Source: a virus
Virus record (IMG/VR): IMGVR_UViG_3300023196_001943
Location: 747-30,463 of that record
Length of the DNA: 29,717 nucleotides
Direction: 5' to 3' (one strand)
Shown here: positions 14,361 through 29,717 of the stretch, one piece after another
Position numbering within the stretch: position 1 is the stretch's first letter
Layout of the letters: every line of letters starts with the position of its first letter
The notes under the pieces: generated by a model
Databases searched by the model: none
The model's input: the letters and a program-made list of their open reading frames with translations, nothing else
Told to the model about the DNA's origin: nothing
Made by a program: the position numbers and the translations under genes

Positions 14361-15557
14361 ATGCCAAATCAAATCGTTCCCGACATCACACCTGGGGCAA
14401 CAGCAGCGACCGACACTGTCCTTGGTGTTAAGTCCGGCGGAGATGACAGCCTCGCTCTGCTCCCTTATGGCGCAGACCTCGCCGTCCTCACCGCCGCTGC
14501 CGCCGCCAAACTCCCCTTGGCTGGCGGCACGATCACCGGCCCGCTCTTTATTGAGGAGCCAACCGTAGATGCCCATGCGGCGACCAAACTGTACGTCGAT
14601 ACCAACACGACTGACAAGCTTCCGTTAGCTGGCGGCACGGTCACTGGGGCGCTCTTTGTCGAGGAACCGACCGTGGACGCTCACGCGGCGACCAAACTGT
14701 ACGTCGATACGACTGCCAGTGCCTCCGGTGCGTTGCTGGTGGTGAACGATCTTTCCGATCTGACGGATGCTCCGACCGCTAGGGCGAACCTGGGTCTTGG
14801 TACGTCTGCTATTTTGGCGTCCAGCGCATTTGCTACTGCGGCACAGGGTGCTACGGCTGACGCTGCACTCCAGACCGTTGCGGTCCCCGGCGACATTACG
14901 GCGACGGGCACACCGTCTGCTAGTACCTGGCTGAATGGCGCTGGCGGGTGGTCTACGCCTGCGGGTGGTGGCGACATGCTTGCGTCCGCCAACCTGTCGG
15001 AGCTAACCAACTTTGGGACGGCACGCACGAACCTGGGTCTTGGTTCGGCAGCGACAACAGCCTCAACCGATTATGCTACTGCGGCACAGGGTGCTACAGC
15101 CGACACGGCGACACAGCCTGGCGATCTTGGTACTGCTGCGGCGCAGAACGTCGAGGCGTTCGCTACTGCGGCGCAAGGCACGACGGCCGACACGGCACTC
15201 CAGACTGTTGCAGTTCCCGCAGACATTACAGCAACCGGTACAGCTAGTGCCACAACGTTCTTGCGTGGCGATGGTGCGTGGGCTGCTGCCGGGTTGGCGG
15301 GCGGTGATGGTGACGTGATTGCGTATCAGCCGTTGCTGTACCGCAATGACGGTCGGTCTACCGAGCTGACCTATACGGGTGACGATCTGACACAAGTGTT
15401 GGAGAAAGACGGGGCGACAACTGTGAAGCAAACCGATCTGACGTATACGGCTGGGAAGCTAACGAGTGTGGTCGAGCTGGCTGATTCAATTACGGTGACG
15501 ACGACGTTGACGTATACGGGTGACAAGTTGACTTCTACTGGTCGGGTGGTTTCCTGA
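14361..15557 (+). CDS. Repeat-rich tail fibre protein
   Basis: 398 aa, Ala/Thr/Gly-rich, built from repeats. Two tandem 32-residue units (50-81 and 86-117) share LPLAGGT-TG-LF, EEPTVDAHAATKLYVDT. A second class repeats with NLGLG (143-147, 224-228) and ATAAQG (158-163, 239-244, 268-273), followed by QTVAVP and DITATGT. Three LTYT motifs (336, 360, 383) with the pattern LTYTGDKLTS end the protein. LAGGT-TG and AATK-YVD are classic fibre-shaft motifs. It probably trimerises and contacts the host surface. The Shine-Dalgarno sequence GAGAGG precedes the ATG; the stop overlaps the kelch start as TGATG. Confidence 0.82.
   Translation: MPNQIVPDITPGATAATDTVLGVKSGGDDSLALLPYGADLAVLTAAAAAKLPLAGGTITGPLFIEEPTVDAHAATKLYVDTNTTDKLPLAGGTVTGALFVEEPTVDAHAATKLYVDTTASASGALLVVNDLSDLTDAPTARANLGLGTSAILASSAFATAAQGATADAALQTVAVPGDITATGTPSASTWLNGAGGWSTPAGGGDMLASANLSELTNFGTARTNLGLGSAATTASTDYATAAQGATADTATQPGDLGTAAAQNVEAFATAAQGTTADTALQTVAVPADITATGTASATTFLRGDGAWAAAGLAGGDGDVIAYQPLLYRNDGRSTELTYTGDDLTQVLEKDGATTVKQTDLTYTAGKLTSVVELADSITVTTTLTYTGDKLTSTGRVVS
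14508..14711 (+). repeat. Tandem 96-bp fibre repeat, two copies
   Basis: Copies at 14508-14603 and 14616-14711 encode the 32-residue LPLAGGT to YVDT unit and stay highly similar in DNA, including the shared ending gcggcgaccaaactgtacgt. Confidence 0.75.
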
Positions 15558-16534
15558 TGGATGCTGTTGCTTACGCACTGGCAAACTCAATACCGGCAAC
15601 GTATTCTGCACCTACGGGATGGGCTACAAAGACTGCGTTGCCAGCCACACGCTACAACCACGCCCAGAGCACGTTAAGTGACAACACGGTGTTAGTGACA
15701 GGCGGGCAAACAACGAGTGCTGTCTACTCTTATAGTCTGATAACCAACACTTGGACTACAAAGACTGCGTTGCCAGCCACACGCTACAGCCACGCCCAGA
15801 GCACGCTTAATGATGGGACGGTGTTGGTGACAGGCGGCTTTGTTTCAGGCTCAGCGTCGGCTGATGTGCAGTCGTATGATCCCGTAACCAACGCTTGGAC
15901 TGCTAAAACTGCGTTGCCAGCCACACGCTACAGCCACGCCCAAACCACGCTTAATGATGGGACTGTGCTGGCAACAGGCGGGCGTGGTGTTGGGGCCAGC
16001 CAGTTTGCTGATGTGGACTCTTATAGTCCGGTGACGGATGCGTGGACTACAAAGACTTCGTTGCCAGCCACACGCTTTGACCACGCTCAAAGCCTGTTAG
16101 ATGATGGGACGGTGTTGGTGACAGGCGGGCGTGTTGGGGGCAACGGTACAGGTGCCCGGTCAAATACTGTTGAGTCGTACGATCCGGCGACGGACACGTG
16201 GACTGCCAAGACTTCAATGCCAGTCACAAGAGAGCTTCACGGACAAAGCACGTTGTTTGGCGGCACTGTGCTGACGACAGGCGGCTATGTGAACGGGGTC
16301 GTGTCGTCTAATATGGGGTTGTATGATCCCGCAACCAACACTTGGAGTTCCACGACTTCGTTGCCAGCAACACGCTACAACCACGCTCAGAGCACGTTAA
16401 GTGATCGCACGGTGTTAGTGACAGGCGGCTTTGTTGCAGGCTCAGCGTCGTCTGATGTCCAGTTGTACACGTCAAACGGTGATCCGCTCACCCCTGGCCG
16501 TGCCGCACTTCTCGGCTATTTAGCCGCAAACTGA
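15557..16534 (+). CDS. Kelch-repeat beta-propeller tail protein
   Basis: 325 aa. Six kelch-type repeats start at Trp22, Trp66, Trp114, Trp163, Trp215 and Trp263, each about 44-52 residues with W-TKT-LPATRY-HAQ, DGTVLVTGG and SYDP-TN signatures. The TGG pair and spaced Tyr and Trp are the standard kelch hallmarks. Six blades can close a beta-propeller. A short non-repeat tail ends the protein (LTPGRAALLGYLAAN). No signal peptide is visible. The gene is coupled to the fibre gene and lies in the adsorption cluster, so binding of a host surface glycan or protein is likely, though not shown. The blades are still near-identical in DNA, indicating recent expansion. Confidence 0.85.
   Translation: MDAVAYALANSIPATYSAPTGWATKTALPATRYNHAQSTLSDNTVLVTGGQTTSAVYSYSLITNTWTTKTALPATRYSHAQSTLNDGTVLVTGGFVSGSASADVQSYDPVTNAWTAKTALPATRYSHAQTTLNDGTVLATGGRGVGASQFADVDSYSPVTDAWTTKTSLPATRFDHAQSLLDDGTVLVTGGRVGGNGTGARSNTVESYDPATDTWTAKTSMPVTRELHGQSTLFGGTVLTTGGYVNGVVSSNMGLYDPATNTWSSTTSLPATRYNHAQSTLSDRTVLVTGGFVAGSASSDVQLYTSNGDPLTPGRAALLGYLAAN
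15620..16480 (+). repeat. Six direct DNA repeats encoding kelch blades
   Basis: Units of about 132-156 bp start near 15620, 15752, 15896, 16043, 16199 and 16343. Several share long identical runs such as actgcgttgccagccacacg. Units 1 and 6 agree in their first part, while units 2 and 6 agree in their second part, so the array looks recombined. Confidence 0.75.
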
Positions 16535-26433: not shown

Positions 26434-26640
26434 ATGATGTCCCGTATGAACCTCAACGAGCAGACCAGGGCGTACGTCTACCGGATGGCGCTTGCCGTCC
26501 TTGGTGTGCTGTCGTTGTACGGGCTGATTGGCCCTGATGAGATCCCTGTGTGGACCGGGGTGATTGTCGCCGCTCTGGGTATTGGCGCGTCGGGTCTCGC
26601 TTCGGTGAACACGACACGCAAGCCGCCCAAGGATTTGTAA
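26434..26640 (+). CDS. Holin
   Basis: 68 aa (67 if ATG 26437 is used). After a short polar N terminus (NEQTRAYVYR) come two hydrophobic segments, MALAVLGVLSLYGLIG and IPVWTGVIVAALGIGASGLA, separated by a short polar turn, then a basic tail (NTTRKPPKDL). This is the layout of small two-span phage holins common next to actinophage endolysins. It would form membrane lesions that trigger lysis. AGAGGA lies just upstream. Its stop overlaps the endolysin start as TAATG, a typical lysis cassette arrangement. Confidence 0.82.
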   Translation: MMSRMNLNEQTRAYVYRMALAVLGVLSLYGLIGPDEIPVWTGVIVAALGIGASGLASVNTTRKPPKDL

Positions 26641-27452
26641 TGGTTCTGTATCCAGAGGCGTACGGGACGAAGATGACGACCCTTGACGGGATGATCGCCA
26701 AGCACGGCGACAAAATGCATCCCGAGTTCCGTCGCAGATTCTTTGCGTACATCGAGTCGAAGGATGGACTCCTCGGTGTCGGCGGCGGGTTCCGTGCAAC
26801 ACAGCCCAGCAAGGCGGGGTTCGCGCCTCCTGGTAAGTCGTTCCACCAGAACCAGAAGTTCAAGTCTGGTATCACTGCCTACTCGGCTGTCGACCTTGTC
26901 AAGTTGCGCCCCGGTGGCGGCGTCCATGTGTCTCCGTCGTGGGACGACTGTGCCGACGCACCCGACTGGTCGTTGCACACGTTTATCAGTGGCGAGCCGT
27001 GGCACATCCAGTGCATCGAGATGCGCGGCTGGGGTGCCTGGTCCAACGCCGGTCGCCCTGATCCACCTCTGGCGGATCTCCCGAACGAACTACTACCAGG
27101 AGCAGACATGTTTCAGCCAATCCAACCGATCCGCAACAGCGACACTCGAGCTTACGGGGTCAAGCTGGAACCCGGCAAGGCTCAGGCGTGGGGGTTGGCG
27201 TCCGCCATCCCGGCCAACGCCGTGGCTGTTGCTCTCAACGTCACTGTTATCAGCCCTACGAAGCCTGGGTATCTGGTTGTGTGGCCGAGCGGCCCGACCC
27301 CGCCGACAGCGACCGTGAACTTTGCACCCGGCGAAGTGATCAACGGGTCGGCAGTCATTGGCGTGAAGAGCGGCAAGTTTAATATTGAGATCGCTGGGTC
27401 TTCGGCCCACGTGACAGTTGATGTCACCGGGTACTGGACTCCTGCCGAGTGA
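26640..27452 (+). CDS. Endolysin: M15 peptidase with actinobacterial surface module
   Basis: 270 aa. The N-terminal domain is a zinc peptidase of family M15 (VanY or L-Ala-D-Glu type): GGFRATQP at 49-56, SFHQNQ at 67-72 (His69), AVDLV at 83-87 (Asp85), and HTFISGEPWHIQ at 113-124 (Glu119, His122). It cuts peptide bonds in peptidoglycan. After a linker, residues ~157-266 form a beta-rich module with SDTR at 167-170, VAVALNVTVISPTKPGYLVV at 195-214, TATVNFAPGE at 223-232 and HVTVDVTGYW at 257-266. This module is widespread in secreted actinobacterial proteins and probably binds the host wall. No signal peptide is present, so release needs the holin. Confidence 0.87.
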   Translation: MVLYPEAYGTKMTTLDGMIAKHGDKMHPEFRRRFFAYIESKDGLLGVGGGFRATQPSKAGFAPPGKSFHQNQKFKSGITAYSAVDLVKLRPGGGVHVSPSWDDCADAPDWSLHTFISGEPWHIQCIEMRGWGAWSNAGRPDPPLADLPNELLPGADMFQPIQPIRNSDTRAYGVKLEPGKAQAWGLASAIPANAVAVALNVTVISPTKPGYLVVWPSGPTPPTATVNFAPGEVINGSAVIGVKSGKFNIEIAGSSAHVTVDVTGYWTPAE

Positions 27453-27481
27453 TCGCTGCCGCAGCGAGCGGCGGAGTTTCG

Positions 27482-27694
27482 ATGACGGAGATCATCGTTG
27501 CCTGCATAGCGCTCAGTGGCGTGCTGGCCACCAGTGGTGGTCTAATCGTGAGAGAAGTGATCAAGATGAAACGGTCGAACACGTACGAGCATGGCGAAGT
27601 GGTTACGATGGTGAAGACGGTGATCATCGGCCAGGACCAACTTTGCAAAGTGGTTGAACGGCACATAGAACAGCACGAAAACTTGCCTAGATGA
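27482..27694 (+). CDS. Small membrane protein in the lysis cassette
   Basis: 70 aa. An N-terminal transmembrane helix (EIIVACIALSGVLATSGGLI) is followed by a basic turn (REVIKMKRSN) and a soluble amphipathic C terminus (VERHIEQHENLP). GGCGGAG lies 8 nt upstream of ATG 27482. A GTG at 27449 that overlaps the endolysin stop would add 11 residues and is an alternative. It could be a second holin, antiholin or spanin-like accessory; sequence alone does not decide. Confidence 0.68.
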   Translation: MTEIIVACIALSGVLATSGGLIVREVIKMKRSNTYEHGEVVTMVKTVIIGQDQLCKVVERHIEQHENLPR

Positions 27695-27736
27695 CGCCGA
27701 CTGGGACCATGCAACCACTAACCAAATAGGAGATAC

Positions 27737-27955
27737 ATGTCACTCGCTGACGCAATGACGGACACGACGCACAAACCACTCAAAGTTGATGCGCTACTCG
27801 CACGACTTGATCCCGCTGACGCTGACACTTTGCGCGACTGGCTTTCCAATCCGTCTGTTAGCGCGTGCAGTATCGCTGACGCGCTGACGGCTAACGGCAC
27901 ACCGATCACGGCGAACCCGATCAGGACATGGAGAAAACGTAATGTCACTAGCTGA
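27737..27955 (+). CDS. Small HTH-like protein
   Basis: 72 aa. Residues ~25-70 read as a helix-turn-helix: LRDWLSNPSVSACSIADALT, then TPITANPIRTWRKRN with a basic recognition-type helix. The Shine-Dalgarno sequence AGGAG is good. It overlaps the metallophosphoesterase gene by 14 bp, and both proteins begin MSLADA, encoded by nearly the same DNA. It may regulate late genes or act with the phosphoesterase; both are inference. Confidence 0.65.
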   Translation: MSLADAMTDTTHKPLKVDALLARLDPADADTLRDWLSNPSVSACSIADALTANGTPITANPIRTWRKRNVTS

Positions 27956-29096
27956 CGCTTTCAGGGTTGGCGATGACAAACGTGTTGGCAACAAACTGAT
28001 TTTGGATATGGCCGAAGCGCTGGTTGCTCGAGGTGTGGACGCTGAGGAACTAGGCAGGCTCGCCCGGTTGAAAGTCAATTCGTCTGAGTGGCAGAACCTG
28101 ACGAAAGACAGCGACGGCGAAGCACACTTGCACGATTTGCGTGGTATCAAGCTGTCGGCTGAGTGGTACACCGAACCGGAATGGCCTGTCGTGCAGGCGG
28201 CGCAGCCGATCAAGTACACGCCGGCCAAAGCGCGCAGCGTGAACGGCGCAAAGCAGACTGTGATTTTTCCTGATCAGCAGTACGGGTTCCGGCGTGTTGA
28301 TGGTGAACTAATCCCGTGCCATGATCGCGATGCTATCGCTGTGTCGTTGGCTGTGGCTAAGGCGATCAAGCCCGACCGGATCACCAACCTCGGTGACCTT
28401 GTGGACTTGCCGGAATGGTCGCTCAAGTTCACGGTGACACCGGAGCTGGTCGAGACGACCCAGCCCGCGTTGGACGAGGCGTATCGGGACTTGACGCAGC
28501 AACGCGAGATCTGTGACGCCATCGACATTTTGGAAGGCAATCACGACGACCGGTTGGCGATTGCGGTGACAGCCAACGCACGGTCTGCGTTGCGGTTGCG
28601 TAAGGGTGGGACGACACCCGATGATTGGCCTGTGCTGTCGATGCCAAACCTGTTGCGTTTGGATGAGCTAGGCATTGTATATCACGATGGCTACCCGGCG
28701 AACCGAACGAAGATTGCGACCGGCACAGACGAACAGACACCGCTCTACGCGGTGCATGGTGAAGCGTTGGACATGATGAAGCTCGCCAAGCAGTCGCGGC
28801 AGTCGTACATCCAAGGCCACATTCACCGACGCGCTATGTATACCGAGACGTTTGAGATCGACGGTCGCCCGGCAATGGTCACTGCGATGACACCCGGCTG
28901 TCTGTGCCGTATCGACGGGGCGGTGCCGTCAACGAAGTCAGCGAAGACCCGCAAGAGTCCGTTGACTCGGTGGGAGAACTGGCAGCAGGGCATGGCTGTG
29001 ATCACCGAGTGGGATGATGGTGACTGGGCTGCTGAGATTATCCCGATTCATCGGGGTCGCGCTTTGTACCGTGGTAAGACATTTGATACAGCATGA
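27942..29096 (+). CDS. Calcineurin-like metallophosphoesterase
   Basis: 384 aa. The five metal-site motifs are present in order: VIFPDQQYG at 107-115 (Asp111, with Gln113 where His is usual), NLGDLVD at 149-155, LEGNHDDR at 197-204, AVHGE at 270-274 (His272) and GHIHR at 292-296. This is a two-metal phosphoesterase core. The first ~75 residues are extra and contain a small helical segment (KLILDMAEALVARGVDAEEL). The substrate could be nucleic acid, nucleotide or a phosphorylated molecule. Its place after the lysis genes rather than with replication genes is unusual. GGAGAAAA lies upstream; the stop overlaps the next small ORF as ATGA. Confidence 0.86.
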   Translation: MSLADAFRVGDDKRVGNKLILDMAEALVARGVDAEELGRLARLKVNSSEWQNLTKDSDGEAHLHDLRGIKLSAEWYTEPEWPVVQAAQPIKYTPAKARSVNGAKQTVIFPDQQYGFRRVDGELIPCHDRDAIAVSLAVAKAIKPDRITNLGDLVDLPEWSLKFTVTPELVETTQPALDEAYRDLTQQREICDAIDILEGNHDDRLAIAVTANARSALRLRKGGTTPDDWPVLSMPNLLRLDELGIVYHDGYPANRTKIATGTDEQTPLYAVHGEALDMMKLAKQSRQSYIQGHIHRRAMYTETFEIDGRPAMVTAMTPGCLCRIDGAVPSTKSAKTRKSPLTRWENWQQGMAVITEWDDGDWAAEIIPIHRGRALYRGKTFDTA

Positions 29097-29197
29097 AAAG
29101 TCTGGCTGCGTTCTTTGCTGGTGTGACGGTTGGCGTTGTTGCCGCTATCTGTTGGGCCGGTTGGCAAATGTGGTCAGTCATCCAGGACGGCGACTAG
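29093..29197 (+). CDS. 34-residue membrane peptide
   Basis: The start overlaps the phosphoesterase stop as ATGA. After MKS the sequence is one hydrophobic helix (LAAFFAGVTVGVVAAICWAG) with a short polar end (VIQDGD). The ending codon TAG lies in the palindrome CTAG, which also supplies the stop of the convergent gene. Coupling and the clear membrane helix support it; it may be an inner-membrane lysis or exclusion peptide. Confidence 0.5.
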   Translation: MKSLAAFFAGVTVGVVAAICWAGWQMWSVIQDGD

Positions 29198-29421
29198 CCA
29201 GTCGGCTGGTTGACCCAGCGGACCGCACCGTCAGCCATGAACAACATGAGCAGCGGCGGACGGTCGTCGGTCGCTGGAACTTCCATCGCTCCAGCAACGG
29301 CCAGAGAAAGCGTCGGCGTCTGTTCAGGCGCTTCGTCGTCCATGAACCCCGAGGCGATCAAAGCCTCGTCAACAATCTCGACTGTCGGCGGTGGAAGCTT
29401 GCTTGTTGACATGACAGCCAT
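29194..29421 (-). CDS. Small acidic protein, convergent
   Basis: 75 aa, unrecognised, acidic and Pro-rich (PPPTVEIVDEALIASGFMDD), with a C-terminal hydrophobic strand (RPPLLMLFMADGAVRWV). It begins 11 nt after the stop of the partial gene on its right. ATG 29412 is an alternative start. The Shine-Dalgarno sequence is poor. Placement as the next leftward gene and tight packing with neighbours support it; an opposite-strand frame of similar length looks like a shadow. Confidence 0.5.
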   Translation of the reverse strand: MAVMSTSKLPPPTVEIVDEALIASGFMDDEAPEQTPTLSLAVAGAMEVPATDDRPPLLMLFMADGAVRWVNQPTG

Positions 29422-29432
29422 CGTAGCAACGG

Positions 29433-29717
29433 TCAGAAGATGAAACCGACGACATCGAAAATGATGAGGTTGCCGTTGGCTGAATTGAACTCATACTTGA
29501 CACGCCGTGACGAGTCGATGCCGACAGTGATCTGGTTGGAGCCGATATCGGTGCCGTTCAAGTTGATTGTCGCGGTGGAAGGCGTCGTGTCGCCGTAGTT
29601 CCAGACGGTCACATACGCATTGCCAGTTGCTCTCGCAGCAATGTTCATGATGACTGCTTTTGCTCCTGCCACAGCGACACCGCCGATTGAAGTTGAGAAC
29701 GTGTGCGAGTAGATCGT
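29433..29717 (-). CDS. Partial gene with actinobacterial beta-rich module
   Basis: The frame stays open to the window edge, so the gene is cut at its 5' side; 94 residues are visible. The visible part reads AKAVIMNIAARATGNAYVTV, then TPSTATINLNGT, ITVGIDSSRRVKYEFNS, and ends LIIFDVVGFIF. This follows, element by element, the module at residues ~193-266 of the endolysin gene at 26640 (VAVALNVTVIS, TATVNFAPG, DVTGYW). It is therefore the C-terminal end of a protein with the same surface-type module, possibly a fibre or adsorption protein. A GTG at 29672 is an internal codon rather than the start, given the continuing match upstream. Confidence 0.7.
   Translation of the reverse strand, partial: TIYSHTFSTSIGGVAVAGAKAVIMNIAARATGNAYVTVWNYGDTTPSTATINLNGTDIGSNQITVGIDSSRRVKYEFNSANGNLIIFDVVGFIF

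Follow-up and report, generated by a model that had tools for sequence, protein, structure and literature searches.

Several phage endolysins are produced from a single gene as two polypeptides, among them Lys170, LysIME-EF1, CTP1L, CD27L, CS74L, and LysP7951 (PMC4777826, PMC9430671). The shorter polypeptide is produced in these systems and in many cases forms a complex with the full-length one (PMC4777826; PMC9430671). Here we describe the lysis cassette of the virus record IMGVR_UViG_3300023196_001943, in which the endolysin gene shows the same arrangement, namely one catalytic domain and one C-terminal module with an in-frame ribosome-binding site and start codon at the border between them. 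It differs from the described systems in that the module lies outside Pfam and has no sequence kinship to solved proteins, that the short form is here a prediction, and that three modules per complex would be expected, compared with four or six in the characterized enzymes. The stretch analyzed (the window, to which all coordinates refer unless stated otherwise) covers 29,717 nucleotides, bases 747 to 30463 of a linear record of 30,463 bases in total, and its right edge is the contig end, where a second gene carrying the same module is cut off.

The explanation that we favor, at a probability of roughly 0.6, is that the cassette encodes a holin and an endolysin of M15 type, with a module of ~114 residues at its C terminus that would have been taken from secreted proteins of actinobacteria-type hosts. 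In cells this module would work as a unit of three, present either as three tandem copies or as one copy per chain, sometimes on a trimerizing stalk. The single-copy endolysin gene would make the full-length enzyme plus free modules from an internal start, and the two products would join in a multimodule complex, in the simplest case with three modules (one full-length chain with two free modules), by which the peptidase would stay attached to the host wall while lysis proceeds. The gene at the right edge would belong to the same family and have been acquired separately.

The holin gene (26434..26640, plus strand, 68 amino acids; phrog_6116, E 1e-14; Pfam Phage_holin_9, E 2e-5) is the first of the cassette, and its stop codon overlaps the ATG of the endolysin gene (26640..27452, plus strand, 270 amino acids). 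The N-terminal domain of the endolysin looks like an M15/VanY zinc peptidase. Residues 1 to ~150 share 65% identity with the corresponding domain of the related phage contig L002 and align with that of a further relative, L007, which matches the Pfam VanY model (PF02557, E 2.9e-5). The zinc-site motif read from the sequence, S-F-H69...A-V-D85...E119-P-W-H122, resembles the SxH, AxD, and ExWH motifs of the M15/VanY D-alanyl-D-alanine carboxypeptidase endolysins; EPWH is present, and the spacing from H69 to D85, SFHx(15)D, exceeds that of the classical SxHxxGxAxD. Unlike those enzymes, the endolysin domain of the window itself reaches no Pfam model.

A Shine-Dalgarno (SD) sequence, AGGAG (27098..27102, plus strand), lies 5 nucleotides ahead of an in-frame ATG at 27108 (AGGAG-CAGAC-ATG, 27098-27110), and the methionine specified by this codon, residue 157, falls exactly at the border of the module. 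As a background, the 192 internal in-frame ATGs of 21 genes in the window were examined for an SD tetramer 4 to 9 nucleotides upstream. Any such tetramer was present at 12 of them (6%), and the strong pentamer occurred only at the ATG at 27108. The corresponding borders in relatives are of the same kind. L002 has an M15 domain with a different C-terminal module, L003 to L006 have an amidase, and L007 has an M15 domain, each with a border ATG preceded by an SD sequence, and the same holds for the contig L105, where a homologous module stands behind a LamG-like domain and not behind a peptidase. The signal is present although the four endolysins (window, L002, L003-6, and L007) have different modules past the border. 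Border ATGs thus carry an SD sequence in five of five cases (window, L002, L003-6, L007, and L105), three of them strong, which against a background of 6% makes chance unlikely. RNA folding near the internal start is unremarkable (z -1.4). Since a second ribosome-binding site and start codon stand at the first residue of the module, the endolysin gene should yield free modules, and the predicted second product runs from Met157 to the stop codon (27108..27452, plus strand, 114 amino acids), its border ATG with SD being kept in four related proteins.

The endolysin module itself (residues 157-270; 27108..27449, plus strand) has direct homologues in cellular Actinomycetota proteins. Homologues on Streptomyces plasmids (E 2e-5) were used to seed a scan of genome contigs, which gave 231 relatives, of which 80 were kept. 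These define a family of about 115 amino acids with the pattern "LDTR ... LNVT ... SNLN ... DVxGY" that is abundant in secreted proteins of Actinomycetota, with cellular homologues 31 to 43% identical to the endolysin module (tblastn E 1e-16 to 1e-12). The initial annotation had called the module actinobacterial. This describes the bulk of the family but is too narrow for the whole, given that members were also found in Acidobacteriota, Myxococcota, a Saccharibacteria bin, and Proteobacteria. No model in the curated libraries (Pfam and NCBIfam) matched the module in the endolysin, in the edge fragment, or in a full Streptomyces protein, and no solved protein matches the module by sequence search, so that the family is unnamed in the libraries searched. 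Peptidoglycan hydrolase domains were found in 8 of 56 triple-module cellular proteins (seven Amidase_2 and one GH25); host-type wall hydrolases therefore carry the module too, and from these domain contexts a role in wall binding is plausible. In the Ilumatobacteraceae genome G026 (behind L028), 145 module matches were counted, and the family seems to have expanded in this group.

To place the two genes of the window, a hidden Markov model (HMM) was built from 126 nonredundant cellular modules and from no sequence of the window. Endolysin residues 157 to 270 matched positions 1 to 113 of this model with 82 bits (E 1.4e-23). The right-edge gene (29433..29717, minus strand), of which only the C-terminal 94 residues are present and the 5' end is open, matched through its residues 12 to 92, at the C terminus of the protein, with 42.3 bits (E 4e-11; model positions 32-111; 29442..29684, minus strand). 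A six-frame scan of the window with the same HMM gave no third match at E <= 10. Chance likeness of the two segments was rejected, as the best of 5,000 shuffled edge sequences scored 12.9 bits against 42.3 for the real one, and direct BLASTP aligned the endolysin with the edge open reading frame (ORF) at 32% identity across 56 amino acids (E 5e-6). The proposal of the initial annotation, that one host-type surface module is present in both genes, is thus borne out by a profile made from cellular modules only, and the profile search that it had named as a check placed the two segments in one family and not in different ones. The ordered motifs on which it was based (NVTV/NIAA, PTATVNF/STATINL, and DVTGYW/DVVGFIF) turn out to be the conserved core of the family. 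The N-terminal P-x-R-x-x-D-x-R strand of the family reads PIRNSDTR in the endolysin, and its counterpart in the edge gene lies past the contig end.

The number of copies per protein is regular in cells. Of 92 cellular ORFs, 83 have exactly three modules in tandem; two modules were counted in three ORFs and a single one in six, and three was the maximum. In 76 of the 83 triple ORFs the third module ends the protein. The Acidobacteria genome G027 illustrates this pattern, as its 38 modules are all accounted for by 12 triple ORFs and 2 single ORFs, both of the latter bearing long collagen-like Gly-X-Y stalks. Overall, such stalks were found in 4 of ~43 single-module ORFs and in none of 115 triple-module ORFs (p 0.005). 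The phage copies are single, in contrast with the three in tandem of the cellular proteins.

The AlphaFold2 model of the endolysin module is a jelly-roll-like beta sandwich of eight strands with a predicted local distance difference test score (pLDDT) of 96.6, in which the first strand starts at the residue after Met157. A three-module tandem of 361 residues was predicted as a single rigid body (predicted template modeling score, pTM, 0.92). The closest solved folds found with Foldseek are weak matches (best PDB E 4e-3, template modeling [TM] score about 0.4-0.5) and include trimeric jelly rolls, namely, the KHP40 trimeric cement protein, the BC2L-C lectin domain, BclA, and ACRP30. The module thus shares with the TNF/C1q-like trimeric jelly rolls (BclA C terminus, BC2L-C N-domain, and ACRP30) a weak resemblance in fold, set beside its own three-copy rule, and, as in BclA and C1q, several of its cellular single-copy members stand on collagen-like stalks. 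It is unlike them in having no sequence similarity, in the low TM score, and in the three copies that a single chain commonly holds in cells, the trimer being a deduction. Because of the three-copy rule, the stalks on some single-copy proteins, and the trimeric jelly rolls among the weak fold matches, we infer that the module may be a trimer-forming jelly roll. The more specific proposal, that this widespread secreted actinobacterial module is an obligate trimer former, usually through three tandem copies, and that a phage with a single copy uses an internal start to supply free modules and so builds a complex of one enzyme and two free modules, is tentative, and we hold it somewhat short of an even chance.

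Several observations weigh against the favored explanation. The fold matches are weak, as the values above show, and about 39 of the 43 single-module cellular proteins have no collagen-like stalk; the stalkless ones include secreted proteins of Acidobacteriota with one C-terminal copy, one of them with a zincin-like metalloprotease motif. Since most single-module proteins lack the stalk, one copy per chain may act as a monomer. The characterized two-polypeptide endolysins have four or six wall-binding domains (1:3, 2:2, and 1:5; PMC9430671) and not three, and for this reason a 1:2 ratio would be new and may equally prove wrong. With regard to the internal start, the choice of border ATGs was made post hoc, the relatives are only partly independent of each other, and linkers between domains are the sites where a start signal harms least.

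The relationship between the two copies was addressed with a tree of 65 modules. The endolysin module is sister to the module of L105 with support of 100/96 on a long shared branch, the two being 43% identical, and the edge module is placed among cellular ones (92/83), in an unresolved neighborhood of the tree. By the family alignment, the endolysin and edge modules are about 23% identical, which, together with their separate places in the tree, agrees with the earlier view that they are not a recent copy of one another. Duplication of the module within the phage is ruled out by the tree. As the endolysin copy groups with that of L105 and the edge copy with cellular ones, the phylogeny indicates that the two are separate acquisitions.

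One alternative concerns the edge gene, which could be a host-derived moron, that is, a secreted surface protein expressed during infection or lysogeny, or could result from a contig end that is chimeric with host DNA. We consider this a serious possibility, although below even odds. The place of the edge module among cellular modules fits it, as does a G+C content of 52.8% compared with 58.9% for the window, and L106 and L107 are viral contigs that carry secreted-type module proteins. On the other hand, the third-position G+C of the edge gene (69%) matches that of the phage, in a fragment that is short, and the stretch from the metallophosphoesterase gene, which adjoins the lysis cassette, to the edge showed no sign of a break in the assembly. 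As the record is linear and its right edge is the contig end, the N terminus of the edge gene lies outside it. An exact-match scan of IMG/VR with a 26-base stretch of the gene found no overlapping contig, and closing the contig end onto the left end was rejected as a way to recover the N terminus, as the record is linear, has a gap of N by the start of the window, and shows no continuation at its left end. No relatives of the edge gene were found in viral, phage, or plasmid collections, nor in an alignment scan led by the edge sequence.

A second alternative is that the short product is made little or never, and that the endolysin is a monomer with one wall-binding module, which we regard as unlikely. 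In its favor, the module follows an M15 domain in the window and a LamG-like one in L105, and the two share the border "DM-F..I.PIRNSDTR," within a phage-specific N-terminal stretch, "MFxxIxPIRNSDTRxY," that is found in the endolysin and L105. C-terminal modules have also been swapped among the endolysins of L002, L003-6, and L007, and many single-module cellular proteins do without a trimerizing stalk. Against it, the SD sequence has been retained although the modules of the window and L105 have diverged to the identity given above, four unrelated border sequences each carry an SD sequence, and internal start signals are used in tested endolysins of other phages (PMC4777826, PMC9430671). We also observed that in the relatives a LamG-like domain precedes the catalytic domain of the endolysin within one ORF (L002:429-1775, L003:1571-2995, L005:2066-3487, and L006:3756-5180), with a further methionine at the LamG/amidase border in L003 to L006.

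The initial annotation had proposed that the phage uses the module both inside at lysis and outside at adsorption, so that the edge gene would encode a virion-associated receptor- or wall-binding protein. As L105 shows, a tail-side protein can bear the module, which is carried there by the LamG-like protein just past the tail hub gene (phrog_1887, E 7e-81), apart from a GH25 endolysin. Nevertheless, this possibility is improbable for the edge gene, because, even though its module belongs to the same family as that of the endolysin and tail fibers are among the viral fold matches, the gene lies on the minus strand, opposite the structural and lysis (late) operon, its module falls outside the phage clade and among cellular copies, its relatives were found in no phage, the module is absent from the examined stretches of 20 phage records to which the metallophosphoesterase or a large internal protein had led, and the gene could just as well encode a moron or a secreted surface protein of the kind present in L106 and L107. 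The edge gene has no match to a virion family and no virion-gene location; it gave only a weak match to phrog_34307, of unknown function (E 0.002).

Searches of IMG/VR and GenBank phages with the whole endolysin and with the edge fragment gave no matches, and relatives were therefore found through the neighboring metallophosphoesterase. The gene for this protein (27942..29096, plus strand; phrog_20266, E 6e-48) adjoins the lysis cassette, has counterparts that are 34 to 92% identical in 19 viral contigs, and is the best-conserved gene of the region, with 88 to 92% identity in contigs that have wholly different endolysins. A 75-amino-acid ORF (29194-29421, minus strand) begins 12 bases past the stop codon of the edge gene on the same strand and has no relatives among the loci examined. 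A search of IMG/VR with an upstream protein of 1,166 amino acids found no relatives. The tail region encodes a protein of Kelch-like repeats of ~55 residues, "TNTWTTKTALPATRYSHAQSTLxDGTVLVTGG" (15557-16534), which is a candidate for a host-contact protein of the phage. Just left of the window, at record positions ~737-746, a run of 10 N lies between G and C homopolymers. The record is therefore a scaffold, and its left 736 bases may not be adjacent to the rest in the phage.

The module family is large, with up to 145 copies in a single Ilumatobacteraceae genome, and is without a Pfam or NCBIfam model or a solved structure. The phage endolysin would give a small and directly testable means of learning what the module binds and in what form it assembles. 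The pattern of three copies, or one on a stalk, predicts a trimer, and the internal start predicts an endolysin complex. If true, one enzyme with two free modules would be a stoichiometry without a reported counterpart among the two-polypeptide endolysins covered in PMC9430671. Phage lysins would also be seen to take the parts that bind the wall from proteins that the host itself secretes.

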